Origin: Streptomyces sp. NBC_01237
Lineage (GTDB): Bacteria; Actinomycetota; Actinomycetes; Streptomycetales; Streptomycetaceae
NCBI RefSeq assembly: GCF_035917275.1
Contig: NZ_CP108508.1
Coordinates: 3,162,001-3,226,000, forward strand
Reading direction: 5' to 3'
DNA length: 64,000 bases
Part shown: piece by piece, positions 1,879-47,794 of the stretch
Layout of the letters: each line of letters begins with the position of its first letter
Position numbering within the stretch: the stretch's first letter is position 1
Position numbers and translations under genes: made by a program
The notes under the pieces: generated by a model
What the model saw: only the letters and a program-made list of their open reading frames with translations
Told to the model about the DNA's origin: nothing
Database searches by the model: none

Positions 1879-2772
1879 TCACGTCTCGTCGACGGCCGCC
1901 TTTCCCCGCACGGGGGCCTCGACGAAGAGGCTCGCGAACAGGTCGGCCAGTGCGGCCACGGACGCCTCGGGGGCCTTCTCCTCGGCGGGACCTTCCGGGA
2001 GCGTCCTGCGCGGCACGGCTGCCGCCCACTCGCCCGCCTCGATCCACGCCCGTAGCGGCCGGCCGTCCCGTTCGGCGTCCGGGGCGATGAGGTCGTACAT
2101 GAGTGTGGCCGCAGACGCGTTGATCGCCTTCCCCAACGCGTTGATCTCCCGGCCGGTCCCCACTGTGGCGCGCTCGATCAGGCGCACCATCGCCTGTGCC
2201 GTCGGCCGATGATCGATCACGTCGAGCCTCAGCACGGTGTTGAACACGTCCTGGTGCGCACAGACGGTCTCGACCGGTGCGTAGTCGGAACCGTCGCGGA
2301 ACAGTTCGGCCGCCCACCACAGCCGGGCGAACGCCTGCGTGTACGCCGGTCCGCTGAACCGGGCGGCGGCCACCTTCGGCAGCTCGCCGCTGTCCTTCTT
2401 CGAATCGGACATGTGGCGCCAGACTACGTAGTCGGGGGCCACACCCAGCGCCAGGTAGTTCCAGAACCTCCGGTCCGCGGCCTCGCGTCGGCTGAGCCGC
2501 AGCGTCGCGTGGAGCCGAGGGGCCAACCAGGCGTCGGCCGCCGTCGGCTTCCCCTCACCGAAGACGTGCATGGCGTCGTCGACGAGATCGCGGACCGGCT
2601 CCAGCTCGGCACGGCTCGCTTCCGCGTACGGCAGAGGTTCGGTGACCTTGTTGAGCCCGATGGAGGGGACGTCCTCCTTCCCGGTGAGCAGGCCTTCACC
2701 GATGTATTGCGCGGCGTTGAGGTCCGCGAGAAGGGCCAGGCGCTCGGGCAGGTGGTTCGGCTTCTCGGTCAT
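1879..2772 (-). CDS. Uncharacterised protein (297 aa), last gene of the HTH-GHKL operon
   Basis: A soluble 297-residue protein with no signal peptide or membrane segment. The ATG at 2772 overlaps the upstream stop by 4 nt (ATGA), which argues for translational coupling and for this start over a longer open frame. The Trp/Arg-rich centre (RRFWNYLALGVAPDYVVWRH, about 104-123) and a downstream RFSG segment resemble, from memory, the DUF6339-type proteins found in actinobacterial defence-like neighbourhoods; that assignment is weak. No catalytic motif is recognised. The context (third gene after an HTH-GHKL ATPase, convergent with a C5 methyltransferase, next to DISARM-like helicases) suggests a role in DNA-targeted defence, but this is inference only. 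Confidence 0.75.
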   Translation of the reverse strand: MTEKPNHLPERLALLADLNAAQYIGEGLLTGKEDVPSIGLNKVTEPLPYAEASRAELEPVRDLVDDAMHVFGEGKPTAADAWLAPRLHATLRLSRREAADRRFWNYLALGVAPDYVVWRHMSDSKKDSGELPKVAAARFSGPAYTQAFARLWWAAELFRDGSDYAPVETVCAHQDVFNTVLRLDVIDHRPTAQAMVRLIERATVGTGREINALGKAINASAATLMYDLIAPDAERDGRPLRAWIEAGEWAAAVPRRTLPEGPAEEKAPEASVAALADLFASLFVEAPVRGKAAVDET

Positions 2773-3761
2773 GCGTCGGTCCCCCGGTGGATGCGTTCGA
2801 GGCCGCGGATGGTGGCGGTCAGAGCCTTGGGCACTTCCGCCCTGAGCGTCGCCGCGTAGTGGATGCGGGGTTGGAGGTCGGTCCACCCGTCCGTTCCGGT
2901 GCGTCGCCGGTGGACCTCACGCAGGGATTCCTCAAGGGGGCGGTCGGGCACGACGTCGGGCAGCATCTCGCGGAGCACCTCGCCCCGCCAGTCGCGCGGG
3001 AATAGCGGCGTTCCGTCGTCCTCGATCTCCAGATCACCGATGGCGGTGTGGAAGACGGCTGTCCACACGTCCGTGCACATCTGCGCGATCAGAAGATCCC
3101 GGACCAGATTGTCGACCGAGGTGCCGTTTCCAACGATGAGTTCGGTCATGCCTTCGAAATCGGTGTTCACATGTACAGCGGGGAGGTCACCGGATGTGTC
3201 GACGATCCACGGCACCTCCGGGAAGCGACGCAGCCATTCCGGCCCTTCCCGGAATCCGACCTCGTGGACTTCGAGTTCCCGCTGGCGAAGGGGCGCATCG
3301 GCCTTCAGGTCGATGATCCAGTCCTTGTCCGAGGTCGCGATCTCCCGTCCCGGCACGCCGTCGACCGTGGCGACCACGTGGAGAGACATCGTGGCCCGGT
3401 CCAGATGGTCCTCACGCCACAGATCCAGATGGCCCGTCCACTGGCGGCCCCCTTCCGGTCCAGGCTTCAGGGACGCCGTGATCCTCGTGTTGGTCGCACC
3501 CTCGCTCAGCACGGCGACGACCGCCACATCGGACCAGGGGCCGCCGGGCTCGGTCGCCCTGCCGGGCAGGGTGGCGGAAAGCTTCAGTCGGGCGCTCTCC
3601 CAGTCGTCCCGCCCGGCCACTCCCGGCGCGACCACCTGATCGACGGTCGAGAACGCGCTGGTGTCCAGCGGTTCCCGGAACTCGCCCGGGCCCCGCAGTT
3701 CGACAGCGTCGACCCGGAGCGACACGACACCGGGAAGTCGCTTGTACGGATAGACCCTCAT
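2769..3761 (-). CDS. Uncharacterised protein (330 aa), middle gene of the HTH-GHKL operon
   Basis: A 330-residue protein I do not recognise. The start at 3761 overlaps the stop of the upstream ATPase gene by 4 nt, and its own stop overlaps the next start by 4 nt, so all three are likely made in fixed ratio. The first two thirds look beta-rich (alternating hydrophobic residues, many Val and Asp); the last third has predicted helices, including a segment around NLVRDLLIAQMCTDVW. No cysteine cluster, Walker motif or signal peptide is seen. It may be the structural partner of the GHKL ATPase, by analogy with other GHKL-containing defence operons where small companion proteins follow the ATPase; this is unproven. 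Confidence 0.75.
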   Translation of the reverse strand: MRVYPYKRLPGVVSLRVDAVELRGPGEFREPLDTSAFSTVDQVVAPGVAGRDDWESARLKLSATLPGRATEPGGPWSDVAVVAVLSEGATNTRITASLKPGPEGGRQWTGHLDLWREDHLDRATMSLHVVATVDGVPGREIATSDKDWIIDLKADAPLRQRELEVHEVGFREGPEWLRRFPEVPWIVDTSGDLPAVHVNTDFEGMTELIVGNGTSVDNLVRDLLIAQMCTDVWTAVFHTAIGDLEIEDDGTPLFPRDWRGEVLREMLPDVVPDRPLEESLREVHRRRTGTDGWTDLQPRIHYAATLRAEVPKALTATIRGLERIHRGTDA

Positions 3762-5875
3762 GCCTGGCCCCCCTTGTCGGTGCGCAGCTCCACGACGAGT
3801 CCGCTGAACACGGCCCGTACCGGATGGGTGGATACGTCGGTGGTTCCCCGGAAGGTCGCGCTGCGTGCGCCGGGCGCGATGTGGATCGCCCCGTCGACCA
3901 CCTCGCAGTTGTGCACGGCGACGAGTTCGGACCAGCCCAGAACCGGTCGCGGCCCGGAGCGCACTTCCAGCTTCGCCACCGGGACGGGGTGCCAGGAGTC
4001 TCCTCCGAGAGGAACCTTGATCTCCCCCGTGACGCACCACGCGCCGTCGCCGTCGATCTGCGCGTCGAGCTCCTCCAGTGTCGGCGGACCCAGCGCCGTC
4101 ACGGGCCGGGCGACCTTGCGGCCTCCCACGGCGAGCCGTTTGCGCAGCCGCTCCGAACCGCCCTTGCGCTTCTTGGCGGGAAGCGCCACCAGATCGCGCA
4201 CGGCCTTGTTCGTCTCGGTGGTGAGAGCGCCGATGCGTCGGTACGCGGAGGGTGAGTAGAGCATCCGCAGCTCTTCCGTCTGTCCCCACTTGTCGTGCTC
4301 GGGCGGTTCCGCGGCACGAAGGAACGCCTCCGCCTCGTCGGCGAAGGGCGCGTCGTCACCCGCCGCCCGGCCCGCGAGGAGCACGGCCTGGAAGAGATTC
4401 GTTCCCACCGGCAGGTTGGGCACCCAACCGATCCTGACCGTCATGCGGTTGCCCCGCATGGTCGTCACCCGGTTCGGCTTCCCTTCGCCGTCCGCGGCCT
4501 CGGTCACCAGAACGACGGCCCGGTGCTCCCCGTCGCTCCGTCCCCCGCGCCCCGGCACCACCAGGGGCACGGTGGTCATGGCCACCTGTCCGGACTCCGT
4601 CAACCGCTCCACGGTCGTACCGTCCAGGAACGCCTGCAGCGCACGGGTCCGCGAAGGTTGGGTGTCGCGGGGGTCGACGCGTGCCTCCGCGATGATCTCC
4701 TCCCCGTTGCGGAGCGTCCGGACGGAGGCTTCCAGCAACGGTTGCCCGGTTCCTCCACCGGTCATGGCCGCCCAGAAGTTCCGGCCGAGTGCCTCCCGGA
4801 GACGGTGGTGCATGCGATGCACGCTGTCGCTGTCCTCGACGTCGCCGTTCTCTGTCGCGTCGGCGAGGCTCGCCACGTCGTGGGCCCCCACGATCAGGAA
4901 CGACGTCCCGGGCTCCGCGCTCTCCCTGGAGAGATGGAGCCGCTCGGCTCCGCCCTCGTCGGCCCACCACGAACGGGCGACGTTCGCATCGTCGGCGTCG
5001 GGATCCGGCCGACCGAACCAGGCCGGGCCGGCCCAGGGTGTTCCGTCCACCTCGCGCCAGGGCAGATCGAGTCGGCCGATGAGCCGCCGCTCGGTCCGTC
5101 CCTCGTGCGGTTCCGACAGCGTGGAGTTCATGAGCACCAGGCCGAGTCGGCTCGTCGCCCAGAGCGTCGCCTTGCCCAGTCCGTACGAGCCACCGGCACC
5201 ACGCACGGACTTGTGGCTGTCGAGCTGACGACGCACGACCGCGGCGAAGCGTCCGGTCTCGTAGTCGTCGCCGGTCAGACCGGAGGCGTTGTAGTCGTCG
5301 ATGCGCAGGAGGACCAGTCGGTCGCGCTCGTGCATGTCACGCAGCCCGGCGGCGATCGTCCGGCCGACCTTCTGGTCCTGTGCGGAAGCCGCCCGGTAGT
5401 GCGGAAGGAGGTCGTCCCAGCGAATCTCGTCCTTGAACCGGGCCAGGAACTTTCCGGTCAGTTCGTGCAGCGTGTACCGCACCCGCACGGGCCGGTCGAG
5501 ATCCAGGCGTTCGTCCAGGCTGTTCTGGGTGGCCTCGCGGGCCAGCACTCCGACATCGGCCCGGAACGCGAAGGCCGCCGCGTTGCCGAACTCGCGTCCC
5601 CCGTCCGCGTATCCGGGACGGTGGTACCAGGAGACCGGCAGGCCGGCCAGGGTATCGGCGGTGCGGGTGTGGATCGTCCCCAGATCCGTCCCCAGCGCTT
5701 CGGCGATCTTGACGATCGTCTCCTCGCGGGGAGTCGCCCGCCCGGTGATCCAGGCCGAGACGGCCGCTCGGGTCAGCCCGATCTCCTGAGCGAGATCGGC
5801 CTGGCTCATCTTCGACTGCTTCAGCTGTCGTGCGAGCCAGGGACCGAAGTCCATGCCGGTGTCCAACGTCACCAC
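3758..5875 (-). CDS. XRE helix-turn-helix fused to a GHKL-type ATPase (705 aa)
   Basis: First gene of the minus-strand operon. Residues about 11-66 form an XRE/Cro helix-turn-helix (MSQADLAQEIGLTRAAVSAW). A GHKL ATPase follows: an N-box-like AREATQNSLDE with Asn118, a G1-like RIDDYNASGLTG (191-202), and a glycine-rich lid GGSYGLGKATLW (228-239). This is the nucleotide fold of Hsp90, MutL and histidine kinases, but no phosphoacceptor domain is present. The remaining 450 residues are unassigned and contain a basic stretch near 600 (KKRKGGSERLRKRL). The start is GTG (5873-5875) with GAGGAG just before it; an ATG seven codons in is an alternative. DNA binding plus an ATP switch suggests a sensor or self-regulator. 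Two TTTGACA boxes lie just upstream. Confidence 0.8.
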   Translation of the reverse strand: MVTLDTGMDFGPWLARQLKQSKMSQADLAQEIGLTRAAVSAWITGRATPREETIVKIAEALGTDLGTIHTRTADTLAGLPVSWYHRPGYADGGREFGNAAAFAFRADVGVLAREATQNSLDERLDLDRPVRVRYTLHELTGKFLARFKDEIRWDDLLPHYRAASAQDQKVGRTIAAGLRDMHERDRLVLLRIDDYNASGLTGDDYETGRFAAVVRRQLDSHKSVRGAGGSYGLGKATLWATSRLGLVLMNSTLSEPHEGRTERRLIGRLDLPWREVDGTPWAGPAWFGRPDPDADDANVARSWWADEGGAERLHLSRESAEPGTSFLIVGAHDVASLADATENGDVEDSDSVHRMHHRLREALGRNFWAAMTGGGTGQPLLEASVRTLRNGEEIIAEARVDPRDTQPSRTRALQAFLDGTTVERLTESGQVAMTTVPLVVPGRGGRSDGEHRAVVLVTEAADGEGKPNRVTTMRGNRMTVRIGWVPNLPVGTNLFQAVLLAGRAAGDDAPFADEAEAFLRAAEPPEHDKWGQTEELRMLYSPSAYRRIGALTTETNKAVRDLVALPAKKRKGGSERLRKRLAVGGRKVARPVTALGPPTLEELDAQIDGDGAWCVTGEIKVPLGGDSWHPVPVAKLEVRSGPRPVLGWSELVAVHNCEVVDGAIHIAPGARSATFRGTTDVSTHPVRAVFSGLVVELRTDKGGQA

Positions 5876-5919: not shown

Positions 5920-5956
5920 TTTGACAACGACACGCGGGCGACAATCCTGTTTGACA
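5920..5956. promoter_or_regulatory. Paired TTTGACA boxes upstream of the HTH-GHKL operon
   Basis: TTTGACA occurs at 5920-5926 and again at 5950-5956, exactly 30 bp (about three helical turns) apart, 45-80 bp ahead of the GTG start of the HTH-GHKL gene. Identical spaced boxes next to an HTH gene suggest an autoregulatory operator. On the plus strand each box could also act as a -35 (TTGACA) for the divergent operon, though no good -10 follows. Confidence 0.4.
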
Positions 5957-6483: not shown

Positions 6484-6831
6484 ATGCCCAAGGGTGAATT
6501 CCACCTCGTCGACGAATACGACTCCCTTCCGGACCCGCAGCTCCGGTCCGACTTCCTCGATGCCGTCGGCACGACGCGCCCCCGCATCGAGCACCTTCGG
6601 CGCCTCCGTGACGCCGAAGCCGCCCGTAACGCGGCGAAGGCTGCCGAGGAGTCGGAGTCGAACGGCTCCTCGACGCACGAACGTCGTCGGCAGTCGCGGC
6701 GTCGCCTTCGCCGCACGCCCCGTCACTCCGGGGTGAACGTCACCCGCCCGCCGAACAGGGGCGACATCCGGCGTATGCCCCCGCGTCGGCGTCGGCGCAT
6801 CGTGTTCGTCATCGTCATCGAACTGGACTGA
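6484..6831 (+). CDS. Small basic protein (115 aa), possible first gene of the helicase operon
   Basis: A 115-residue open frame starting ATG at 6484. The first 60 residues are amphipathic and charged (FHLVDEYDSLPD, then an Ala/Glu/Arg-rich helix); the second half is very rich in Arg, including five consecutive Arg before a hydrophobic VFVIVIELD end. A purine-rich AGAGCAAGGGTGA lies just upstream. It could be a nucleic-acid-binding accessory protein, but I know no homologue, and Arg-rich frames arise easily in high-GC DNA. It is separated from the next gene by about 115 bp containing a hairpin. Confidence 0.4.
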   Translation: MPKGEFHLVDEYDSLPDPQLRSDFLDAVGTTRPRIEHLRRLRDAEAARNAAKAAEESESNGSSTHERRRQSRRRLRRTPRHSGVNVTRPPNRGDIRRMPPRRRRRIVFVIVIELD

Positions 6832-6948: not shown

Positions 6949-9900
6949 TTGAACCACCCAAACGTGACGGGCAGTTCGGGCGACTCGTCCGTCATCCAGA
7001 CAATCATCGAGCAGTCGACGCGCGTCCTGGAGACGTACCGAGTCGATCCGGGACTGATTCTGGAGCACGCCAACGGTGAGCGGCGGATCACCCAGGGCGG
7101 ATACGGCGACCGGCAGTTGTTCGAACTCGTCCAGAATGCGGCCGACGAGATCGCCGACTCCCCCGGTGGGAAGGTGCAGGTCGTTCTCACGAACACGCAC
7201 CTCTACTGCGCGAACGGAGGAACAGCGGTCACGCCGCAGGGCGCGGAGACCATTCTCCGGATGGGTGTGTCGAAGAAGCGCGGGGGCCAGATCGGACGAT
7301 TCGGGGTCGGCGTGAAGTCGATTCTGGCCGTCACCGACACTCCTCAGTTCTTCAGCACGTCCGGCTCGTTCGGATTCGACCGGGGATGGTCCTACGAGGA
7401 GATCAGGAAGGCGCGCGGCGGCGCGGCCGACGAGGAGTTCGAGGCGCCGGTCCTGCGGATGGCCCGTCCGCTGGACGTCGAGAAGGAGCGGGCGTCGGAC
7501 TCGGTGCTGGCCGGACTGCTGGACTGGGCCACCACCGTGGTGCGACTTCCCCTGCTGCCGGGGGCCGCGGAACGTCTCGGCCACGACATCCACACCTCCG
7601 CGAACAAGCCCGAGGTCCAGCGGGAGTTCCCCGCCCGGTTCCAGCTCTTCTCCCACCATGTGGGGACGGTGGTCCTGGAGGACCGTCGATCCATGCCGCA
7701 GGTCCGCCGTGAGATCACGGTCGAGCACGAGGGTTTCGTCCACACCATCCACGAGACGCGTACCGGCAAGCCGGATGCGCGGTCCACCTGGAAGGTCTTC
7801 GCCCACGCCCACCGCCCCACCGAGGTGGCCAGGGCCAGCGCGGGCGAGATGCACGACCGGGGGACGATCGACATCGCGTGGGCCGTTCCCGAGTACACCG
7901 GTGACACCGTGCTCACCGCTCCCAAGGGGCGTGGCCAGTTCTGGTCGTTCTTCCCGACCAAGTACCCGATGACCCTGGGCGGGATTCTCAACGGCGCCTG
8001 GAAGACGAACGAGGACAGACAGAACCTTCTGGACTCCAGCCCCTTCAACCAGGAGATCATCCAGGTCGCGGCGCGGCTGGTGGTCGAATCGCTTCCGCAG
8101 TTGGCTCCCGCCGAGGACCCGGGTGCCTATCTGCCCCTCCTGCCCGGCCGGCCCAGGGATTCGGAGACCCTGAACTGGGCGGACAAGTATCTGACCGAAC
8201 AGATCTGGAAGTTGACGGCCCAGCTTCCCTCCCTCCCCGATCAGGACGGTGTCCTGAGGATCCCCCGGGATCTGCGGATCCACCCGGCCCCGGTGAGGAA
8301 GGTCCCGCTCAAGCTCGAATGGCTCCGCATGTGGAACGCCCACCCCGGGCGCCCCTCGGACTGGATCCACCCCTCGGTGGAGGCCGCCGAGTTCCGCCCC
8401 GGCAAGGTGGGACACATCCTCGACGAGACCCGCCAGGGCCGGGCCACCGTCCGGGAATGGCTGGAGGCCCTGGTCACCGACGGCACGGCCGAGGCCTCCG
8501 CCGTCGCGATCCGTATCCTCGCCGCGATGATCCGTGAGGCGTCCCCGTTCGCGGCCGAGGCCCGAGCCGCTCGCATCGTGCTCACCGAGGAGAGCGGGAT
8601 GGTGCCCGCCGTCGTGGGCAAGGTCTTCCGCCGGGCCGTTCAGGACGGCCTTCGGGACGGGACGACGTATGTCGATCAGAAGCTGTCCGAGGATCAGTCC
8701 CTGATCAGCGATCTCAACGAGATCGGCATCCGCGAGGCGGACTCCCGAGGACGCTTCATCGGCGTCCTCGAACAGGGTTTTGACAACTACGGTCCGCAGG
8801 ACTGGGCACGTTTCTGGGAGCTGTTCCACAGCGCCGGCGGCAGTCAGGTCAGTGGAGAGGTCAGCGCCCGCGTCCCCGACCCGATGGCGACCCTGTACGT
8901 ACGGACGGTCGACGGTCGTTTCCACCCCATGCGGGACTGCCTGCTCCCGGGGGACGTGGTGCCCGGTGACGGAAGCCGGGACGGCTCGGTCGCCGTGGAC
9001 CTGCGGTTCCATTCCGACGACAGGATGGTCTTCCACGAGTTCGGCCTGCGCGCACTGCCGACGACCAGTCACCGCCCGACGGACGAGCAGTGGTACGAGG
9101 AGTACCGAACGGCCATGTACGAGAGCTACTGCCGGACGTTGAGCAGCAGCGCCGGTCGCCCTTCGTTCAACAGGCTCAAGTTGGAGGGCTCCCCCATCGG
9201 GGGGCCGCTGCACCTCCTGGAACGGCTGTCGGAGGAAGGCAGAGGTGCGTTCGTCAAGGCGCTGCCCGACGCGAGTGTCATCGACACCTGGACCATGCAG
9301 TTCGGCGTCCAGGTCTCCACACGCAAGACCGTCTACTCCCCCTTGCGGTGGATGCTCGCCCGACACGGCAGGGTGCCCACCTCGCAGGGTGTCGTGCCGC
9401 TCGCCGGCGCGGTGGGCCCGCAGCTCCGCGGCTACGCGGATGTCCTTCCCGTCGCGGACATCAGTGCGGAGAAGGCACGGAAGCTGCACCTTCCGACCGT
9501 GGTGGAGGACGTCCCCGCGAAGCAGTGGACCCGCCTGCTCGAACAGCTCGGCACCAGCGACGACGACACCTTCGTCGGTCGTACGTACGTGATGCTGACC
9601 CGCCTCGAAGTCGACTTCCCCGAGGGGGAACTCACCCGTTGCCGAGTCGGATCGGAGTGGTCCGCACGCGAGGACCACGAGATCGCCGTCGCGGCGACCG
9701 ACGCGGAGTACCGCGCGCTTCGCGCGGAACAGCTGCCCGCCCTGTTCGCCGGGAGCCCGGAGGACGCCGCGCTCCTGGTCAAGACGTGGGGCATGCTGCG
9801 CTACGCCGACGTGATCAGCAAGGAGATCCGGCATGTGGGGATCGGCGAGCCCACGCTCCTGCAGGACGAGTTCCCCACGCTCCGCCGGCGCATGGGGAAC

Positions 9901-11718
9901 TCCATCAACAACTACACACTGCAGCCGTGCTCCGAGCTGGAGGAGCTGATCCGAACTCCGCAAGGCACCCGGGCCACGTCTCTGAGCAGCGCCCTCCAGG
10001 GCACCACCGTCCTCGTCCTGGAACCCGAGGATCGACTGGCCGCCCTGGTGGCGGTGGATCGCGAACTGCGCTGGGGGCTGAAGGAAGCGGGGTGCCGAGC
10101 GGTTCTCGACGCGCAGGAACGGCAGGAGACCGATCAGCAGCTCCAGGCCGCCCTCCGCCGGGTCCGGGAGGCGGAGAGCGTCGAGGAGAAGCTGGAACTG
10201 CTCATCGGGGCGGACGCGTTGCGCGCGGGCCTGCCGCCGGGTCTGATGGAGAGCGAGCGAGCCGAACTCGGCGATGTCGATCCCTCGGCCCGTCGCATCG
10301 CGCGGATGGCGTACAACGCCCACGGTGACAGCGTCCTGCACATGCACACCCGCGATCTCCTGTCCGCCTACCCGAGCCATGCCCCGTCGGGCTTCACCGG
10401 CTCCTCGTCCGCGGTGAGGTTCGTGTCGGAGTTCGGCTTCCCCGACTCCTTCGCCGGCACCAGGACCCCCTCCCTGGCTCCGCGGGTCGAGGTTCCGGGC
10501 CCCACGGAGTTCCCCCGTCTGCACGACTACCAGGAACGCCTGGCCACGAAGGTCTTCGCGATGCTGGACCGGTTCACCCCGCAGCGTGGGATGCTGTCGC
10601 TGCCCACCGGCGCGGGCAAGACCCGGGTGGCGGCCGAAGCGGTCATTCGTTGGGTCAAGCAGATGGGCGAACTGGAAGGTCCCATTCTCTGGATCGCCCA
10701 GACCGAGGAACTCTGCGAACAGGCCGTTCAGAGCTGGAGTTTCGTCTGGTCGAAGGTGGGAGCCGAATCCCCGCTGACGATCAGCAGGCTGTGGACGACC
10801 AACGAGGCGGGGCCGGTCGGCGACCGACCTCATCTCGTGGTCGCGACGGACGCGAAGCTCCGCAACTGCCTGGGCGAGGACGCGTACGCCTGGCTCCGGC
10901 AGGCGTGTCTCGTGATCGTCGACGAGGCGCACGTGGCGATCTCTCCGCAGTACACGGAGATCCTCGCGCACCTCGGTCTCACCTCCCGCGAGACACGGCG
11001 TCACCTGCTCGGACTCACCGCCACCCCGTTCCGCAACACCAACGACGAGGAGACCCGGCGCCTGGTCCAGCGTTTCGGCGCCCAGCGACTCGACGACGGG
11101 ATCTTCGCCTCGGACGACGCGTACGCGGAGCTTCAGGAGCTCGGCATGCTGGCGAAGGTCACCCACCGCGAACTGCTCGGTGGGACGATCGAGTTGACCA
11201 ACGACGAGAAGCATCGGGCCGATCAGATGAGCCTGCTGTCGAAGGCCGCCGAGCAGCGTCTCGCCGACGACCACGACCGCAACAGGCGCATTCTCGAAGA
11301 GATCGAGGCCATGCCCGCCGACTGGCCGGTGCTGGTCTTCGCCACGTCCGTCGCTCACGCCAAGTTCCTCGCCGCGAAGCTCAAGGACCGGGGCATCACC
11401 GCCGTCTCCGTGGACTCCGCCACGGCGGCGGGCGAACGAAGGAGGAGCATCGACGACTTCCGCCGGGGTCGAGTGCGCGTGCTCACCAACTACGGTGTCC
11501 TGACGCAGGGGTTCGACGCGCCTGCCACCCGCGCCGTCGTCATCACCCGCCCCACCTACAGCCCGAACGTGTACCAGCAGATGATCGGTCGTGGTCTGCG
11601 CGGTCCCGGCAACGGAGGCAAGGAGACCTGCCTCATCCTGAACGTCCGGGACAACATCACCAACTACGACAAGGCGCTCGCCTTCACGCGGTTCGAGCAC
11701 CTGTGGAGGGCCAAGTGA
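6949..11718 (+). CDS. GHKL/sacsin-like ATPase fused to an SF2 DEAH helicase (1589 aa)
   Basis: A giant two-headed protein. The N-terminus has an Hsp90/sacsin-type nucleotide fold: QLFELVQNAADEI with Asn63, and a GRFGVGVKSIL lid near 116-126. The C-terminal 400 residues are an SF2 helicase: Walker A LPTGAGKT with Lys1224, DEAH at 1325-1328, a motif V-like LTQGFDAPATRA, and motif VI QMIGRGLRG near 1544-1552. About 1000 residues between them carry no motif I recognise. TTG at 6949 is taken as start; a GTG at 6964 is possible. Its stop overlaps the next start by 4 nt (GTGA). Fusion of an Hsp90-like ATPase to a translocase recalls other very large defence proteins, but I cannot name a family. It could be the sensor or motor of the DISARM-like locus. 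Confidence 0.85.
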   Translation: MNHPNVTGSSGDSSVIQTIIEQSTRVLETYRVDPGLILEHANGERRITQGGYGDRQLFELVQNAADEIADSPGGKVQVVLTNTHLYCANGGTAVTPQGAETILRMGVSKKRGGQIGRFGVGVKSILAVTDTPQFFSTSGSFGFDRGWSYEEIRKARGGAADEEFEAPVLRMARPLDVEKERASDSVLAGLLDWATTVVRLPLLPGAAERLGHDIHTSANKPEVQREFPARFQLFSHHVGTVVLEDRRSMPQVRREITVEHEGFVHTIHETRTGKPDARSTWKVFAHAHRPTEVARASAGEMHDRGTIDIAWAVPEYTGDTVLTAPKGRGQFWSFFPTKYPMTLGGILNGAWKTNEDRQNLLDSSPFNQEIIQVAARLVVESLPQLAPAEDPGAYLPLLPGRPRDSETLNWADKYLTEQIWKLTAQLPSLPDQDGVLRIPRDLRIHPAPVRKVPLKLEWLRMWNAHPGRPSDWIHPSVEAAEFRPGKVGHILDETRQGRATVREWLEALVTDGTAEASAVAIRILAAMIREASPFAAEARAARIVLTEESGMVPAVVGKVFRRAVQDGLRDGTTYVDQKLSEDQSLISDLNEIGIREADSRGRFIGVLEQGFDNYGPQDWARFWELFHSAGGSQVSGEVSARVPDPMATLYVRTVDGRFHPMRDCLLPGDVVPGDGSRDGSVAVDLRFHSDDRMVFHEFGLRALPTTSHRPTDEQWYEEYRTAMYESYCRTLSSSAGRPSFNRLKLEGSPIGGPLHLLERLSEEGRGAFVKALPDASVIDTWTMQFGVQVSTRKTVYSPLRWMLARHGRVPTSQGVVPLAGAVGPQLRGYADVLPVADISAEKARKLHLPTVVEDVPAKQWTRLLEQLGTSDDDTFVGRTYVMLTRLEVDFPEGELTRCRVGSEWSAREDHEIAVAATDAEYRALRAEQLPALFAGSPEDAALLVKTWGMLRYADVISKEIRHVGIGEPTLLQDEFPTLRRRMGNSINNYTLQPCSELEELIRTPQGTRATSLSSALQGTTVLVLEPEDRLAALVAVDRELRWGLKEAGCRAVLDAQERQETDQQLQAALRRVREAESVEEKLELLIGADALRAGLPPGLMESERAELGDVDPSARRIARMAYNAHGDSVLHMHTRDLLSAYPSHAPSGFTGSSSAVRFVSEFGFPDSFAGTRTPSLAPRVEVPGPTEFPRLHDYQERLATKVFAMLDRFTPQRGMLSLPTGAGKTRVAAEAVIRWVKQMGELEGPILWIAQTEELCEQAVQSWSFVWSKVGAESPLTISRLWTTNEAGPVGDRPHLVVATDAKLRNCLGEDAYAWLRQACLVIVDEAHVAISPQYTEILAHLGLTSRETRRHLLGLTATPFRNTNDEETRRLVQRFGAQRLDDGIFASDDAYAELQELGMLAKVTHRELLGGTIELTNDEKHRADQMSLLSKAAEQRLADDHDRNRRILEEIEAMPADWPVLVFATSVAHAKFLAAKLKDRGITAVSVDSATAAGERRRSIDDFRRGRVRVLTNYGVLTQGFDAPATRAVVITRPTYSPNVYQQMIGRGLRGPGNGGKETCLILNVRDNITNYDKALAFTRFEHLWRAK

Positions 11719-13628
11719 CCGACGCCTACCTCGACAGCCCGCCCCTCACCGAGGAGCAGCAGGCGGTGGTCGACCACCCCTGGGACACCAGGTTGTTGGT
11801 CACTGCGGGTGCAGGCGCCGGTAAGACACACACCCTGGTCCGCCGTCTCGACGCCCTCATGAGCGACGAGGACGAGGCTCTGGAGGCCGGTGAGATCCTG
11901 GTCCTCAGCTTCTCCAGGGCGGCGGTCCGGGAGCTGCGCGAGCGGATCGCCGCGCACGCCACCGAGGCTCGTCGGGTCAGGGTCCAGACCTTCGACTCAT
12001 GGGCGTACAGCGTGCTGCGGAGCGAGCAGCCGGACCGTGACTGGGGTGCTCTCCGTTTCGACGAGCGGATCAGGGAGACCACCGAGGCCATTCTGCGAGG
12101 AGCGGTGGAGGCGGGCGAGCAGGGCGCACCCGCCCATGTGGTGATCGACGAGGTCCAGGACCTCGTCGGTGATCGGCGGGACATGGTGGAGACCCTGCTG
12201 GACCGCTTCCAGGAGAGCTGCGGCTTCACCGTGGTGGGCGACGGGGCTCAGGCGATCTTCGGCTTCCAGGTGTCGGACGAGGATGCCCGTGCCGCCGAGA
12301 CGAACTACTTCTTCGACTGGTTGCGCGCCTCCTATCCGGACGACCTGGTGGAGCTGCATCTCTCCACCAACTTCCGGGCACGTACGGACGAGGCCCGCAC
12401 CGCGCTGGCTCTCGGCGGCGCGCTCCGGCAACTGCCGTCGGAGTCGGCGGAGTCCGATGCCGCCGGTGAGGACTATCACCGGAAGCTGACCGACCTGCTG
12501 CGTTCGTGCCCCGATTTCGGTGATCCGGGGGACCCGTTCACCGTCGAGTCGCTGCAGTCGTACCCGGGGACCTGCGCGATCCTCTGCAGGGACAATCGGC
12601 AGACGCTCGTGCTGTCCGACAAGCTGTTCTCGCTCGGGGTCCGCCACCGTGTGCAGCGAGCCCTCCAGGATCGGCCCGTTCCCGCCTGGGTCGCCTCCGT
12701 CCTGCGCGGAACGGGCACCACCACGTTGACCGAGGAACGCTTCCTGGCGCTGCTCTCCGCGAGCCCGGTGGCGCCGGTCGGGGACCGTGCGAGGATCTGG
12801 CGTTCCCTGCGGGGCGCCGCCCGTGCCCCCAGGGGGCTGATGGATGTGTCGGCCGTGCGACGGCTGGTCGCCGAGGGACGGTTCCCCGACGATCTGGCGG
12901 CCGTCGAACCCGCGGACCTGATCGTGTCGACCGTGCACCGTGCCAAGGGCCTGGAATTCGATCGGGTGATCGTGCTCGACCCCGCCCCGATGGCGGAGCT
13001 GCGCAAGCAGCACACCCATGTCGACCCTGCGGCCGAGGCGCGTTCGCTCTACGTCGCGATGACCCGCCCTCGGGACGACCTGTTCCGTATCGAGGCGCCG
13101 GACACGGCGCTGATCCGTCGTGACAGGTCGACCGACCGTTGGTACCTGGGGGGTTGGAAGTCGTACATCCGTGACGGCATCGCCGCCTCGGGGCGCGACG
13201 TGTGCCGGGAGCACCCGCCCGGAACGGACGGATTCTCCGACGACGCGGCGGCCGTGCAGGACTATGTGACGTCGGCGGTGTCCCCCGGAGACGCACTGGT
13301 TCTCCGGGCCCAGCACGAGCTGCCCGTGGCCGCCGACCAGAGCCCCCCGTACACCGTCCTCCACCGGGACCGTCCGATCGCGGTCGTCTCGGAGCGGTTC
13401 CGCAGGGATCTCCACGCCTCCCTGAAGATCAGCAGGACCTGGGACGTCAACTGGCCGGTGGAGATCGAGGGGTTCACGGTGGACTGTCTGGAGAGTGTCG
13501 CCGGAAGCGTCGCCTCCGGCGCCCGCGCGGGACTGGGGGATCACGGCATCTGGACGGTGCCCCGTATGACAGGACTCGGTCGGTACAGGCGAGCCGGGAA
13601 GACCGTGCAGGAAGGCGACGACGCATGA
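11715..13628 (+). CDS. UvrD/Rep-like SF1 helicase (637 aa)
   Basis: A superfamily 1 DNA helicase: Walker A TAGAGAGKTHT with Lys37, motif Ia-like ILVLSFSRAAVRELRERI, Walker B/motif II IDEVQD (Asp145), a VSTVHRAKGLEFDRVIVLD segment and motif VI YVAMTRPRDDL. It lacks a recognisable RecB-type nuclease motif; about 150 residues follow motif VI, ending in a Gly/Arg-rich tail. The GTG at 11715 overlaps the previous stop by 4 nt and is preferred to a much longer frame that runs through the upstream gene. Its stop overlaps the next ATG by 4 nt. It probably unwinds or translocates on DNA together with the flanking SF2 and DrmA-like proteins. Confidence 0.88.
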   Translation: MTDAYLDSPPLTEEQQAVVDHPWDTRLLVTAGAGAGKTHTLVRRLDALMSDEDEALEAGEILVLSFSRAAVRELRERIAAHATEARRVRVQTFDSWAYSVLRSEQPDRDWGALRFDERIRETTEAILRGAVEAGEQGAPAHVVIDEVQDLVGDRRDMVETLLDRFQESCGFTVVGDGAQAIFGFQVSDEDARAAETNYFFDWLRASYPDDLVELHLSTNFRARTDEARTALALGGALRQLPSESAESDAAGEDYHRKLTDLLRSCPDFGDPGDPFTVESLQSYPGTCAILCRDNRQTLVLSDKLFSLGVRHRVQRALQDRPVPAWVASVLRGTGTTTLTEERFLALLSASPVAPVGDRARIWRSLRGAARAPRGLMDVSAVRRLVAEGRFPDDLAAVEPADLIVSTVHRAKGLEFDRVIVLDPAPMAELRKQHTHVDPAAEARSLYVAMTRPRDDLFRIEAPDTALIRRDRSTDRWYLGGWKSYIRDGIAASGRDVCREHPPGTDGFSDDAAAVQDYVTSAVSPGDALVLRAQHELPVAADQSPPYTVLHRDRPIAVVSERFRRDLHASLKISRTWDVNWPVEIEGFTVDCLESVAGSVASGARAGLGDHGIWTVPRMTGLGRYRRAGKTVQEGDDA

Positions 13629-16600
13629 CCGACGACACGAACCCGCACTCCGCGCACTACGAGCTGCGTGACGGCCTTGTCGCACAGCTCCGCAGGGACC
13701 TGCTGGGCCCCGGATCACCCGACGAGGTCCTGACGCAGGACCCGCCGATCACCACCTATCCGATCGGGGTGTTGTTTCCGCGCGCCTCGGACGACGAAGC
13801 CGAGCGGGCACTCGGTGAGGACGCGGCCGAGAACGAGGGTCTGGACGACGCGCCGCTCGCGAGGAGGGGCAGGGACATCGAGGAGTCCGCGCCGGACCTC
13901 GGCGTCGCCCACGTCGGCGACCGGCGCCCCTCGTCCATGGGACTGACGTTCGCCGTCGACCCCTCCGTCTCGCGACGCCTCGTCGTGCGCACGGAAGCCG
14001 CCGTCTACGATCCGGTCGACGCCGAAGGACGTCCTGTCGCCGCCGAGCGCGCCCGGGCCCGCACCGTCTCGGAGCAGAAGGAGCACTGGCGCAGGCGCCC
14101 ACTGACCCTGCGCCCGGAGACCATCGACGTGTCCGTGCCCCGTCGGTATCGGATCGACGATCTGCACGCCGGTGTCGCCGTCGACGTCGTGGTCCGCCCC
14201 GTGGCTCCCGCGAGCGGGACCGTCACGGTGACGGTGACGTTGATCAACTCGCACCTCGTGGGGAAGAGGGCGCTGCAGGACGCCTTCTGCCTGTACCAGC
14301 CCCGCCTCACCGTCACGACGGAGTCCGGCGCCCGGGGCTTCGTCGAGCGCCCCTCCGAGCGGCGGGTGATCGACCCGGAGGTGGCGACGAGCAGGCTGCT
14401 GCACCGTCATGCCCCGACCTTCGCCGTGGGACACGGTTGCTCGGCCGCATGGGACTGGACCCCCGCGCCCATCGGCGAGCCCACCACGGAGCGCGCCGCC
14501 ATCGACACCGTACGGACCGAGTTCGTCCCGGCGCACGATGTGCTGCTGACAGATTCCAACCCCGACATCGACGATTCGGCCCTCACCATGCAGGGCCTGG
14601 CGACCAGGCCCGAGAGCGAGATCCTGGCCGCGCTCAACGATCTGACGGCCGCGTACGCCGATTGGATCGATCGCAAGGAGGCGGAGTCGGGCGCGTTTCG
14701 CGGCACCCCGCACGCGGCACCGGCCCGCACACAGATCGAGCACTGTCGTACGGCCCTCGCCCGGATGCGTCGCGGTATCCGGGTCCTCGGCACCGACAGC
14801 GACGCGATGCGGGCATTTCGGCTGGCCAATCGGGCGATGGCCCAGCAGCGCTCCCGCAGCGAGTGGGTGAAGAAGGGCAGGGAGGGTTCCCCCGATGAAT
14901 CCGTCGGGCGGTGGCGTCCGTTCCAGATCTCCTTCGTGCTCCTGTGCCTCGAAGGGATCGTGGACCCCGGGCACCCGGACCGTTCGGTCGCCGACCTGCT
15001 CTGGTTCCCCACCGGTGGTGGCAAGACCGAGGCGTACCTCGGCCTGATCGCCTTCACCACCTTCCTTCGGCGCATGCGGCTGAAGGAGCACGGAGGGGGT
15101 GTCACCGTCCTCATGCGCTACACGCTGCGGCTGCTCACCCTGCAGCAGTTCGAACGAGCCGCGGCTCTGATCTGCGCCATGGAGCGCATCCGCCTCGGCG
15201 ACGAGCGGACGCTGGGGACGGAACCCATCTCCATCGGCATGTGGGTCGGCCAGTCCGCCACCCCCAACAAACTGTCGGTGGCCGAGGAGAGCCTCGCCGA
15301 ACTGCGGAAGGAGAAGGAACTCCAGGAGAAGAACCCCGTCCAACTGCACGCGTGCCCGTGGTGCGGCACCCGCATGGACGCGCATCAGTACGAGGTCGAC
15401 GAGCCGGCGAAGCGCATGCACGTCCGATGCCCGGACACCTGGTGCGACTTCCACAACGGGCTCCCGGTCCATCTGATCGACGAAGCGGTCTACGACGCGC
15501 GGCCCACGCTGGTGATCGCCACCGTCGACAAGTTCGCCGCCATGCCGTGGCGGGAGCAGACGGCCGCGCTGTTCAACCGCGACCGCTCCGACGGAACCCC
15601 GCCTCCCGAGCTGATCGTCCAGGACGAGCTGCACCTCATCTCCGGTCCGCTCGGAACACTCACCGGTCTGTACGAGACGGCCGTGGACCTGCTGGCCGAC
15701 GAACCCAAGGTGATCGCCTCGACGGCGACGATCCGCCGTGCCTCGGACCAGGGCAGGAAGTTGTTCGCCCGCGAGGTGGCCCAGTTCCCGCCGGCGGGCA
15801 TCGACGCCCGCGACTCCTGGTTCGCCGTGGAGACGCCCAAGGAACGCAAGGCGAGCCGCCAGTACGTCGGTCTGCTCACCCCGAGCACGAGCCAGTCCAC
15901 TCTCCTCATCCGTACCTACGCCAACCTCCTGCACCGGGCGGCGAGGGCCGGGAGCACCGACGAGGTGCGTGACGCCTACTGGACGCTCGTCGGCTACTTC
16001 AACAGCCTTCGGCTGTTGGCCGCCGCCGAGCTGCAGGTCCACGACGATGTCGATGCCTACCTCGGCTACCTTGCCGAACGTGACGGCTGCGAGCAGCGAA
16101 AGATCGTGGAACAGACCGAGTTGACCAGTCGGGCGAACTCCAGTGAGGTACCCAAGCGGCTCAAGCAGGTCGAGCGACGGCTGCCGCATCCCGATGTCGT
16201 GGATGTCCTCCTGGCCACCAACATGATCTCGGTCGGTGTCGACGTGGACCGGCTCGGTCTGATGGCGGTCATGGGGCAGCCGCAGACCACGGCCGAGTAC
16301 ATCCAGGCGACCAGCCGGGTCGGTCGACGCCACCCGGGGCTGGTGGCCGTGATGCTCAACTCGAACCGCTCGCGCGACCGTTCGCACTACGAGAGCTTCC
16401 AGCACTTCCACTCGGCGCTGTACCGCGAGGTCGAGTCGACCAGCGTGACGCCCTTCTCCTCCCGCTCCCGTGAACGCGGTCTGCACGCCGTGGTGGTCGC
16501 GCTCGCCCGGATCCTGATCCCCGCGGCCCGCCCCGACGACGGTGCCGGACGGATCGACGAGTTCCGCGACGAACTGAACCGGATCGTCAGGACTGCGCTC

Positions 16601-16849
16601 CTGGACCGGGTCCAGGCGGTCGACCCGGACGAGTACGCGGCGACGGCCGCCGCGTTCGACGAGTTCGTCGAGTGGTGGGCCGAGGAGGCCGAGCTCCATG
16701 GCGGGCTCACCTACGAGCCCAGGCGGGGCCGGAGGACACCGTCCCTGCTGTGCGCGTTCGACGACGACAACGAGGGTGCGTGGCCCACCCTGTGGAGCCT
16801 GCGCGATGTCGACGCCGAGTCCGCTCTCTTCATGGAGGCAACCCGATGA
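13625..16849 (+). CDS. drmA-like: DrmA-like helicase of a DISARM-type system (1074 aa)
   Basis: Resembles DISARM DrmA: a long N-terminal region (about 440 residues) before a helicase core with the characteristic WFPTGGGKTEAYLG Walker A (Lys467) and a DELH Walker B (667-670). A zinc-knuckle-like insert lies between these: CPWC at 577-580 and CPDTWC at 602-607. The C-terminal lobe has NMISVGVDVDR and motif VI QATSRVGRRHPG (about 894-905). In DISARM, DrmA works with DrmB to bind unmethylated or phage DNA ends. The start overlaps the preceding gene by 4 nt and its stop overlaps drmB by 4 nt, so DrmA and DrmB are translationally coupled. Family membership is a motif-level call; the exact subtype needs a profile search. 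Confidence 0.87.
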   Translation: MTDDTNPHSAHYELRDGLVAQLRRDLLGPGSPDEVLTQDPPITTYPIGVLFPRASDDEAERALGEDAAENEGLDDAPLARRGRDIEESAPDLGVAHVGDRRPSSMGLTFAVDPSVSRRLVVRTEAAVYDPVDAEGRPVAAERARARTVSEQKEHWRRRPLTLRPETIDVSVPRRYRIDDLHAGVAVDVVVRPVAPASGTVTVTVTLINSHLVGKRALQDAFCLYQPRLTVTTESGARGFVERPSERRVIDPEVATSRLLHRHAPTFAVGHGCSAAWDWTPAPIGEPTTERAAIDTVRTEFVPAHDVLLTDSNPDIDDSALTMQGLATRPESEILAALNDLTAAYADWIDRKEAESGAFRGTPHAAPARTQIEHCRTALARMRRGIRVLGTDSDAMRAFRLANRAMAQQRSRSEWVKKGREGSPDESVGRWRPFQISFVLLCLEGIVDPGHPDRSVADLLWFPTGGGKTEAYLGLIAFTTFLRRMRLKEHGGGVTVLMRYTLRLLTLQQFERAAALICAMERIRLGDERTLGTEPISIGMWVGQSATPNKLSVAEESLAELRKEKELQEKNPVQLHACPWCGTRMDAHQYEVDEPAKRMHVRCPDTWCDFHNGLPVHLIDEAVYDARPTLVIATVDKFAAMPWREQTAALFNRDRSDGTPPPELIVQDELHLISGPLGTLTGLYETAVDLLADEPKVIASTATIRRASDQGRKLFAREVAQFPPAGIDARDSWFAVETPKERKASRQYVGLLTPSTSQSTLLIRTYANLLHRAARAGSTDEVRDAYWTLVGYFNSLRLLAAAELQVHDDVDAYLGYLAERDGCEQRKIVEQTELTSRANSSEVPKRLKQVERRLPHPDVVDVLLATNMISVGVDVDRLGLMAVMGQPQTTAEYIQATSRVGRRHPGLVAVMLNSNRSRDRSHYESFQHFHSALYREVESTSVTPFSSRSRERGLHAVVVALARILIPAARPDDGAGRIDEFRDELNRIVRTALLDRVQAVDPDEYAATAAAFDEFVEWWAEEAELHGGLTYEPRRGRRTPSLLCAFDDDNEGAWPTLWSLRDVDAESALFMEATR

Positions 16850-18690
16850 CCCCTCCCCACTCCCGGCGCCGCCGGGCCGGTGCGCCCGAACGCAGCTATC
16901 CCCGTCGGGGCTCCGTCCGCCGGGCGCAGATGATCACGACGTACGGTGTCGGTTCGCTCGTCGCCGTCGACAACGAGTCGTTCATAGTGACCGGCATCGA
17001 CTCGTGGAACATCAGTGAGGCACCGACGATCTACGAGCACCGCCTGGCCCGGGTGCTCGGCGTGAAGTCGTTCCGCCTGCCTCCCGCATCGGACGACACG
17101 AGCAGGGACGGCGTGCACGTCCGCCGCTTCCCCCTGTGGCACTCGTGCCCGTCCTGCCACACCCTGCAGCATGTGCGACTGTTCAACTCCCCGCCGGGGA
17201 AGAACGAATGCGGTGACTGCGAGGAGGACCTCGTCCCCTCGCGTTTCGTCATGGCGTGCGCGAAGGGCCACATCGACGATTTTCCGTACTGGAAGTGGGC
17301 GCACCGCAAGAACCGGCAGGAAGGCGAATCCGGTCTCTGCGGTGGCCGGATGCGGCTGCGGACCACCGGCAGGACGGCTTCGCTCCGCTCGATCCTGATC
17401 TCCTGCACCTGCGGTATCCCGGAGGTGTCCATGGAGGGCGCCTTCCGGAGCACCGCCTTGTCCGACCTGAAGGTGTTCTGCGGCGGTAAGCGCCCCTGGC
17501 TGAAGGACGCTCCGACGGATTCCTGCTCGGAGCGGCCGCGGACGCTCCAGCGCGGTTCGTCCGTCGCCTGGCAGCCCATCGTGCGGACGGCGCTGTCGAT
17601 CCCCCCGTGGAGCGACGGGCACTTCACCCGGCTCGCCCCGCACATGGACGACCTGCGCAACATGTACGAGGACGGAGACACATCCGGCATCAGGGGCTTC
17701 CTCAAGGCATTCACGCTCAGGGAGCCGTACGAGTTCTCGGCCGAGAGGGTCATCGCCCTCCTCGAAGCGGAGAACCACGAGGATGTGGCACCCGACCAGG
17801 AACAGATCAAGGACGACGCCTACACGGCGCTTCGAAAGCAGGAGTACGAACGGCTGATCGCGGGCCGCGCCGAGAGCGAGACCGACCACGAGGACCAGTT
17901 CGTCTGCGAGCCGCCGCGATCGTCCGCGTCCGTCCTGGCTCCCTACGGCCTGGAAGGCCCGATGCTGGTCAAACGTCTGCGGGAGGTCCGTGCGCTCAAG
18001 GCGTTCTCGCGGGTCGACACACCCGAGACACGCACGGACGTCCAGGAGGCCGCGCTGTCCCTCGTCGACATGGACTGGCTGCCCGCCATGGAGGTCCAGG
18101 GCGAAGGCGTCTTCCTGCGGCTCGACGAGCAGCGGCTGGACTCCTGGGCACGGAGCGTCGCGGTCGCGGCCAGAGTGGACCGAATCCGGGCCAACCACCA
18201 GCGCATGATGCGGGAACGCGCCCAGGCACCGGCGGATGTTCCCGAGTCGCCGGCCACCCCGCGCATGGTTCTCCTGCACACGTTGGCGCACGCGCTGATC
18301 AATGAGTGGAGCCTGGACGGCGGCTACCCCGCAGCGTCCCTGCGCGAGCGTCTGTACGCGGACGACTCCATGGCGGGAATCCTCGTCGCCACGGCGACGA
18401 GCGATTCCGCCGGCAGCCTCGGCGGCCTGGTCGCCCAGGGCGAACCGGACCACCTTGCCCTCTCCCTGCGGTCGGCACTCGTCCGGGCCCAGTGGTGTTC
18501 GGCCGATCCGCTCTGCGTGGAGTCCGAGGCGAGCGGCGTCGGAGGCATCAACCTGGCGGCCTGCCACGCCTGCGTCCTCCTGCCCGAAACCAGCTGCGAA
18601 CACAACAACGGCCTGCTCGACCGGGCGTTGTTGATCGGCACCCCGGAGGATCCGTCCATCGGGTTCTTCGGCGAGGCGCTGCGGTCCTGA
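16846..18690 (+). CDS. drmB-like: DrmB-like DUF1998 protein (614 aa)
   Basis: Matches the DrmB pattern. The N-terminus has RRGSVRRAQMITTYGVGSL (about 20-38), followed by a zinc ribbon CPSC (101-104) and CGDC (122-125) and the CAKGHIDDFPY segment. The C-terminal DUF1998 domain starts around LLHTLAHALINEWSLDGGY and ends with cysteines in ACHACVLLPETSC and an NNGLLDRALLIG end. DrmB is the non-helicase partner that clamps DrmA on DNA in DISARM. It is the last gene of the operon; the stop lies 8 bp from the stop of a converging gene. No phospholipase-D (drmC) gene follows, which is unusual because drmABC is the conserved DISARM core. Confidence 0.88.
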   Translation: MTPPHSRRRRAGAPERSYPRRGSVRRAQMITTYGVGSLVAVDNESFIVTGIDSWNISEAPTIYEHRLARVLGVKSFRLPPASDDTSRDGVHVRRFPLWHSCPSCHTLQHVRLFNSPPGKNECGDCEEDLVPSRFVMACAKGHIDDFPYWKWAHRKNRQEGESGLCGGRMRLRTTGRTASLRSILISCTCGIPEVSMEGAFRSTALSDLKVFCGGKRPWLKDAPTDSCSERPRTLQRGSSVAWQPIVRTALSIPPWSDGHFTRLAPHMDDLRNMYEDGDTSGIRGFLKAFTLREPYEFSAERVIALLEAENHEDVAPDQEQIKDDAYTALRKQEYERLIAGRAESETDHEDQFVCEPPRSSASVLAPYGLEGPMLVKRLREVRALKAFSRVDTPETRTDVQEAALSLVDMDWLPAMEVQGEGVFLRLDEQRLDSWARSVAVAARVDRIRANHQRMMRERAQAPADVPESPATPRMVLLHTLAHALINEWSLDGGYPAASLRERLYADDSMAGILVATATSDSAGSLGGLVAQGEPDHLALSLRSALVRAQWCSADPLCVESEASGVGGINLAACHACVLLPETSCEHNNGLLDRALLIGTPEDPSIGFFGEALRS

Positions 18691-42512: not shown

Positions 42513-42550
42513 GTCCCGCGTCACCCTCTCGCCGTCCTCACGTCCGCCGG

Positions 42551-44252: not shown

Positions 44253-44441
44253 GTCGCCCCCTTCCCCCCACCCCGGCCGGGCCCCCGACCCGGCCCCGAC
44301 ACCAAAGCGCACGACCCTAGTGCACGCCGGGCGGCCACCGCGAGCGGTTATCCGGGACCCTCATTGAAGGATGATCCGAAGATTTCCCGGCGAAACGGGC
44401 ACTATGGGAGAACTGACCGCGGCCGAGGAGTCTCCACCGAT

Positions 44442-46826: not shown

Positions 46827-46855
46827 CCGGATGGCGTGGGCGGGGGCCGCGGGCG
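46796..46855 (+). terminator. 22-bp stem-loop spanning the PBP stop codon
   Basis: The arm at 46796-46817 pairs perfectly for 22 bp with 46834-46855, with a 16-nt loop that holds the TGA stop (46824-46826). The 5' arm encodes the Pro/Arg-rich end of the protein. It is probably the transcription terminator and separates the convergent SMR gene (stop at 46891). Confidence 0.75.
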
Positions 46856-46890
46856 TGCGAACGGTGACCGGTCGGAGCGCGGTGACCGGA

Positions 46891-47211: not shown

Positions 47212-47319
47212 GACGGCACCTCCGACGAAAACTCGTGAACAACACGGGTGCGTCGTCTTTGCCAGCCCGGTACGGCGCGTCTCGTCGGGGTCCCCCCACC
47301 GTAGCAAAGAACGGGCAAA

Positions 47320-47347
47320 GGGCCCGGTGACACCGGTCACCAGGCCC
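47320..47347 (-). terminator. Terminator after the GroES-like gene
   Basis: GGGCCCGGTGAC (47320-47331) pairs with GTCACCAGGCCC (47336-47347), 12 bp with one G-T pair and a 4-nt loop. Reading on the minus strand it is followed by TTTGCCCGTTCTTT, a U-rich tail, so it should terminate the GroES-like gene that ends at 47399. Confidence 0.75.
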
Positions 47348-47398
47348 TTCCCCACAGCTCACACCACGGCGCGGGACGGAACACGCAACGAAACGCGG

Positions 47399-47740: not shown

Positions 47741-47794
47741 GACCCGAAACCTACCTGCCCCGCCCTGATCCGTACGCCTCCGGGGTGCGACCGG

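Follow-up and report, generated by a model that had tools for sequence, protein, structure and literature searches.

DISARM occurs in two classes, of which class 1 carries DrmD and DrmMI and class 2 carries DrmE and DrmMII. According to PMC9142583, the DrmAB pair is autoinhibited and loads on single-stranded DNA with a 5' overhang, the trigger loop of Serratia DrmA comprises residues 176-232, and DrmC is non-essential and often missing. The Figure 1 legend of a 2025 survey of YprA helicases (PMC12458937) refers to many uncharacterised DISARM-like classes within a DISARM-like clade, and a role in looping or remodelling DNA within restriction systems has been proposed for MORC-type GHKL ATPases with SF2 helicases (PMC2292703). 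Here, a locus of Streptomyces sp. NBC_01237 is described in which DrmA and DrmB are the last two genes of an operon that begins with a giant GHKL ATPase-SF2 helicase fusion (GHKL_SF2) and a UvrD-like SF1 helicase, and which stands head-to-head with a divergent operon of three genes. The locus was analysed in a stretch of 64,000 nucleotides (the window; G000:C1:3162001-3226000) of a 10.19-Mb genome, and positions are counted from its first base, negative ones lying to its left. The mechanism of DISARM is unsettled with respect to motor partners, nuclease and control, and this cassette ties DrmAB to two more motors and a probable switch in a layout that is fixed and widespread.

The four-gene operon

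The four genes (the quartet: GHKL_SF2 giant, UvrD-like SF1 helicase, DrmA and DrmB) lie on the plus strand at 6949-18690 and overlap by 4 nucleotides (nt) at each junction (GTGA at 11715-11718, ATGA at 13625-13628 and ATGA at 16846-16849), with reading frames backed by codon-position GC. The giant is composed of a sacsin/GHKL ATPase at about amino acids (aa) 40-450, an unclassified middle part and a RadD/ResIII-like SF2 helicase at about aa 1190-1569. Its N-terminal part matched the sacsin-type ATP-binding domain NF047352 with 65.5 bits (cut-off 50), the Pfam sacsin model staying below its own cut-off, and in the helicase part ResIII, DEAD and Helicase_C all exceeded theirs. The motif residues of ATPase and helicase are invariant across 13 sequences with identities down to 31%. 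A nuclease in the middle part was considered and rejected, as the profile found no PDB match beyond chance, W, P, G and L account for most of the invariant residues, and a D-ExK pattern was not seen by eye.

The second gene matched the UvrD-helicase profile with 93.9 bits (cut-off 23). For the third, the equivalog NF038325 (DISARM_DrmAS) reached 1019.7 bits (cut-off 950), and the solved Serratia DrmAB structure was matched at E 8.5e-174 (PDB 7s9v_A), an acidic stretch at about aa 53-104 aligning with the trigger loop of Serratia DrmA. The fourth gene reached 473.3 bits with NF038324 (DrmB_fam, cut-off 240), matched PDB 7s9v_B at E 1.2e-76 and contains an MZB domain (30.1 bits, cut-off 24.2).

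An earlier note, made from the sequence alone, had described four genes at these positions that are joined by 4-nt overlaps, end in DrmA and DrmB and are devoid of drmC. The coordinates and all three overlaps were verified, the profile searches matched all four proteins to their families, and both end genes exceeded the curated NCBIfam cut-offs. The absence of drmC was borne out as well, since no PLD (DrmC-like) gene is near and the sole PLDc_2 (PF13091) match in the genome lies about 1.7 Mb away, other PLD models not having been run.

Recurrence and co-inheritance

Related loci were collected with the giant as query, and the best 80 of 431 relatives, covering close and middle relatives, gave 79 distinct loci. 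The quartet order is kept in 76 of the 79 named-genome loci, which belong to 15 genera, and all three 4-nt overlaps are retained in 53 of these 76. Two of the exceptions (L207 and L247) run off their contigs and one (L266) is a true exception. In 78 of the 79 loci, the gene after the giant encodes an SF1 helicase, though the loci were chosen by the giant. The divergent trio, encoding an HTH-GHKL-like protein, the unclassified protein U331 and a DUF6339 protein, spans 1879-5875 on the minus strand here and is present in 74/79 loci. The order of the quartet is thus more than chance, and the cassette is common to many soil bacteria.

The earlier note had linked the giant and the SF1 helicase to drmA and drmB, had left open whether the order was unique to this genome, and had proposed a distinct branch of the DrmAB family. 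Both genes do recur with drmA and drmB, and the order was found again across the 15 genera. In a DrmA tree of 61 chosen rows, with support by the SH-like approximate likelihood-ratio test (SH-aLRT) only, the 26 sampled quartet DrmA from many families group on one side of a branch with an SH-aLRT of 99, apart from canonical class 1 DISARM (L199, with DrmD and DrmMI by PADLOC). Two points of the note have to be corrected. No methyltransferase is listed there, and a reading in which none belongs to the locus is not supported, as a C5 (cytosine-5) DNA methyltransferase is found near the quartet in 76/79 loci, and two are present in this one. Conservation also extends beyond the four genes, and the range 6949-18690 was too narrow.

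Pairwise distances of GHKL_SF2 and those of UvrD, DrmA and DrmB showed a correlation of r 0.97; for HTH-GHKL, U331 and DUF6339, the values were r 0.92, 0.88 and 0.86, and for the two methyltransferases (MTase1 and MTase2) and the Vsr mismatch endonuclease, they were r 0.75, 0.66 and 0.56. None of 300 permutations was as high in any case; species relatedness is uncorrected, and the contrast among genes of the same locus is the informative part. Because quartet and trio correlate more closely than the methyltransferases, the unit of control and effector appears stable and the methylases seem to be exchanged more freely. Among 150 Streptomyces genomes, GHKL_SF2 is patchy (24/150), and HTH-GHKL was found in 22 of the 24 genomes with GHKL_SF2 vs 9 of the 126 without (p 4e-17). 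A GHKL_SF2 homologue with 67% identity is on record for S. venezuelae ATCC 10712. A search of 72,556 plasmid records at E <= 1e-100 yielded no plasmid-borne copy.

Block replacement and a predicted methyl-directed restriction enzyme

A genome of the same species (G166) is devoid of the whole 24.2-kb block, which runs from immediately left of a MORC gene to the end of DrmB, and is collinear up to -5564 and from 18661 on with 94-96% identity (blastn). Instead of the block, about 4.3 kb encode one protein of 1061 aa (L191:12630-15815; G166:C23:413629-416814), which PADLOC assigned to a type IV methyl-directed restriction enzyme (mREase) with 1555 bits, the target being the label of the profile, and which has the Pfam domains PLDc_2, SF2 and DUF3427. 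Judged from the alignment, this looks like a replacement between common flanks.

Homologues of the mREase (E <= 1e-100) were found in 46/150 genomes. Only one of the 33 genomes with GHKL_SF2 or HTH-GHKL (G176, partial) has such a homologue vs 45 of the 117 others (p 2.7e-5), and when the partial or divergent G154, G176 and G283 were set aside, the counts were 0/33 and 43/117 (p 4.4e-6), statistics that ignore species relatedness. Genomes with another DrmA and without the module are not depleted, as 14/31 have a homologue. The near-absence in carriers fits a methylated host genome there. On a simple reading, a cassette that writes 5-methylcytosine (5mC) and an enzyme attacking modified DNA do not coexist, and the near-absence points to DNA methylation as a constraint on the defences that can occur together.

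The same flank gene was seen in 31/79 cassette loci and in 10 of 21 mREase loci examined (G166 included), the 20 others having been picked out of 45 matching genomes, chiefly among those ranked highest. Since cassette and mREase share this gene in part of their loci, competition for one chromosomal site may explain part of the avoidance; as the whole cause it was rejected, as the gene is shared in no more than these fractions.

Probable control by the divergent operon

The HTH-GHKL protein matched HTH_3 with 52 bits (cut-off 23) and PADLOC PDC-M33A with 70.6 bits at aa 108-251, and three GHKL motif boxes, read by eye, are invariant in 15 sequences. On this motif reading only, it is a putative GHKL ATPase. 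In 75 gaps between HTH-GHKL and quartet (window included), 125 TTTGAC/GTCAAA half sites were counted vs 26.8 expected by dinucleotide resampling, and 44/75 gaps contain at least two vs 4 expected, related loci not being independent in these counts. Most half sites (109/125) are no more than 100 bases away from the end of the HTH-GHKL match, and the recurrent spacings (+- 18, -+ 11 and ++ 30/31) point to a putative operator of three half sites. As TTGACA is also a -35 box, some of them may be promoters.

In three sibling loci (G218, G233 and G235), HTH-GHKL shares a single open frame with sigma-70 regions 2 to 4, which precede it. Pfam regions 2 and 4 exceeded their cut-offs in all three and the HTH itself is weak there; the opposite arm is again DrmAB, and a NERD-SF1 helicase was confirmed in G218. 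Half-site enrichment beside its start together with these fusions suggests that HTH-GHKL works at a promoter, and it is probably the switch of the cassette.

At another Streptomyces locus, a separate sigma-70 gene (522 aa, L195:7375-8943) was noted directly 5' of DrmA-DrmB. An association of DrmAB with a sigma factor seems to exist in further Streptomyces loci as well.

Natural variants of single positions

In the exceptional Rhodococcoides locus (L266:883-16451), a fused YprA-type helicase (DEAD, Helicase_C, MZB) and an SF1 helicase precede the giant, and UvrD is absent from the 2.5 kb downstream of it. The giant is followed there by an unclassified protein of 542 aa, in which a nuclease-like EAK stretch was noticed by eye. 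At two other loci (L265:19466-21619 and L267:21664-23760), the gene directly 3' of DrmB encodes a protein whose additional N-terminal domain resembles RelE by eye, as in ArmD of ARMADA; the protein at L265, which alone was examined, is a UvrD helicase by Pfam.

Single positions are filled differently among the variants: a NERD-helicase takes the place of UvrD, a sigma fusion that of HTH-GHKL and a fused YprA-type helicase that of DrmAB (one locus), and methylases are exchanged. Such swaps of single positions offer a means to learn which part senses, which controls and which destroys.

Proposed function and alternative explanations

With moderate confidence, the locus is regarded as a phage-defence cassette of a restriction-modification-like kind that moves as a single block, is linked to 5mC and has the quartet as its effector. 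The two C5 methyltransferases would mark host DNA as self with 5mC and, together with Vsr in most loci, might both mark DNA and mend 5mC deamination. DrmAB might act as a loader on exposed single-stranded phage DNA, incoming or replicating, with the GHKL-SF2 ATPase-translocase and SF1 helicase joining it in a complex as further motors by which this DNA would be unwound or dismantled. Control of the quartet, including the switching on of the effector arm, would fall to the divergent trio, in which HTH-GHKL would bind the TTTGACA half sites of the common promoter region as an ATP-dependent switch.

A promoter-gated DISARM is put forward more tentatively. HTH-GHKL would hold the divergent operon off via TTTGACA and release it upon infection, and in one lineage it would have turned into a fusion of sigma factor and ATPase by which RNA polymerase is recruited; the operon would encode a motor machine with DrmAB as DNA loader and the sacsin-type clamp-translocase as main motor, and exchangeable 5mC methylases would mark self.

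Several findings weigh against a single cassette of this kind. A nuclease was not recognised in any of the nine core genes, and no more than 63/79 loci yielded a Vsr. The ATPase part of HTH-GHKL gave no Pfam HATPase match, a PDB profile search with the protein returned HTH matches and one weak other only, and profile-profile comparison found nothing with MORC and the first box alone with the GHKL part of the giant (E 0.026). The parts are also separable. The trio occurs without DrmAB beside it in six of nine genomes of the genus without GHKL_SF2 (among these trio-only genomes, G189 and G244 have contigs that break off shortly beyond it, and in G244 DrmA is found elsewhere, on other contigs), a quartet with no trio is seen in L258 and L268 (10 kb upstream covered), in G240 and in sister loci of 33% identity, and at L266 the giant has entirely other partners. 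Site competition, as far as it accounts for the avoidance of mREase, counts here as well.

This separability, together with the separate names that PADLOC gives to the trio genes, would also be expected of two independent defence systems side by side, a PDC-M33-like one of C5 methylase, HTH-GHKL, U331 and DUF6339 and a DISARM-like quartet, brought together by co-mobilisation and not by joint function. Such an arrangement is possible but rather doubtful, as the head-to-head layout is fixed in 74/79 loci across genera, trio and quartet correlate in their distances (0.86-0.92) more closely than the methyltransferases do, and in the sibling variant the same trio faces another DrmAB arm head-to-head. 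DrmA and DrmB reach their family cut-offs, C5 methyltransferases are in the locus and DrmC is dispensable in DISARM according to PMC9142583, so that a plain DISARM with a cytosine methyltransferase could be assumed, in which DrmAB and the methylase would be the working parts, with giant and SF1 helicase as accessory substitutes for DrmD, DrmE and DrmC. This is unlikely, since neither DrmC nor DrmD nor DrmE was seen, MTase2 is nearer to a type II methyltransferase profile (720 bits) than to DrmMII (66 bits), DrmA branches separately from canonical class 1 (L199), and the SF1 gene follows the giant almost throughout, albeit in loci chosen by the giant. A complex for DNA repair or chromosome maintenance, which the RadD-like, UvrD-like, MutL/GHKL-like and Vsr parts recall, is very improbable in view of the patchy presence in Streptomyces, the replacement of the block by another restriction enzyme in G166, the identity of DrmA and DrmB and the looser inheritance of the methyltransferases.

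Other features of the locus

The coordinates of all features are given in Table 1. MTase2 matched PADLOC MTase_II (PDLC03374) with 720.3 bits vs 66.1 bits for the best DrmMII profile. The N-terminal half of U331 is an Ig-like sandwich with middling Z in structure comparison, and the AlphaFold2 (AF2) model of DUF6339 is helical (predicted local distance difference test, pLDDT, 79.8), with no fold match at E <= 0.001. Both were considered as nucleases and set aside, as neither has a PDB sequence match. The small open reading frame (ORF) in the divergent gap is arginine-rich, is kept by close relatives only and may be due to chance. To the left of the block, a large protein at -9011 to -5610 (L149) shows, by eye only, a caspase-like peptidase and a C-terminal von Willebrand-like part. 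Elsewhere in the window, strong AT skew (0.25-0.29) was noted at 42000-48000 across an ORF of 1201 aa (43221-46826).

Table 1. Features of the cassette and of related loci
Feature	Position	Strand	Basis or remark
C5 DNA methyltransferase 1 (MTase1), 317 aa	-404 (outside window) to 549; L149:15596-16549	+	TIGR00675 dcm 118.5 bits (cut-off 100.65); PF00145 on in-window part
C5 DNA methyltransferase 2 (MTase2), 413 aa	620-1861	+	PF00145 92.2 bits (cut-off 22)
DUF6339 protein, 297 aa, trio gene 3	1879-2772	-	PF19866 52.7 bits (cut-off 23.2); PADLOC PDC-M33C 33.5 bits
U331, unclassified, 330 aa, trio gene 2	2769-3761	-	Ig-like N-terminal beta sandwich
HTH-GHKL-like protein, 705 aa, trio gene 1	3758-5875	-	Cro/CI-type HTH; region with GHKL-type boxes
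Operator-like TTTGACA half-site pair	5920-5926 and 5950-5956		Divergent gap
Small basic ORF, 115 aa, doubtful gene	6484-6831	+	No family match; present in 4/79 loci
GHKL_SF2 giant, 1589 aa	6949-11718	+	TTG start; sacsin/GHKL ATPase domain and SF2 helicase profiles
UvrD/GajB-like SF1 helicase, 637 aa, C-terminal part unclassified	11715-13628	+	GTG start; profiles and alignment
DrmA, 1074 aa	13625-16849	+	ATG start; NF038325, PDB 7s9v_A
DrmB, 614 aa, MZB Zn-binding domain	16846-18690	+	ATG start; NF038324, PDB 7s9v_B
Right edge of block	18661-18690		Left edge at -5564, outside window
Sigma-70/HTH-GHKL-like fusions, head-to-head with DrmAB operon	L186:5904-9530, L187:6031-9627, L188:6008-10945		Related to MzaA of the MZA system

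Comparison with known systems

With DISARM, the cassette shares DrmA and DrmB, as judged by curated profiles and the solved Serratia DrmAB, and a DNA methyltransferase in the locus. It differs by the GHKL-SF2 giant, the SF1 helicase and the divergent trio, by two C5 methyltransferases, often with Vsr, and by a separate DrmA branch; DrmC, DrmD and DrmE were not seen at the cassette. To our knowledge, no link between PDC-M33, a PADLOC candidate, and DrmAB has been described; HTH-GHKL (M33A) and DUF6339 (M33C) gave partial matches only, with the scores stated above. The MZA system was not recovered, as MzaB reached 128.8 bits (cut-off 850) and MzaC 252.2 bits (cut-off 1500).

ARMADA, BRIGADE and TALON likewise combine a YprA-family helicase with a methylase or an SF1 helicase, and ARMADA type II has a GajB-like helicase (PMC12458937); only in L266 does the likeness go further, the giant there having a fused YprA-type helicase and an SF1 gene as neighbours. 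In ARMADA, BRIGADE and TALON, YprA is one fused chain, accompanied by BrxHII and PglX, whereas DrmA and DrmB are split in the cassette. A YprA fused to OB-CON-DUF1998, a feature of ARMADA (Bell et al. 2025), is not present, PglX was not among the matches listed, and the BrxHI and BrxHII profiles gave weak matches only (<= 18.7 bits) on the helicase part of the giant.

In its main text, the YprA survey (PMC12458937) names neither GHKL nor sacsin and mentions UvrD solely for ArmD of ARMADA. The earlier note had allowed that the combination might already be catalogued elsewhere, and no name for it was found in PADLOC 2.0.0, NCBIfam 20.0 or open-access papers without supplements. The cassette looks like one of the uncharacterised DISARM-like classes of the survey. 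Its parts belong to known families, and DrmA and DrmB place it beside DISARM; what appears to be new is the recurrent combination of the giant, its SF1 partner and the trio with DrmAB.

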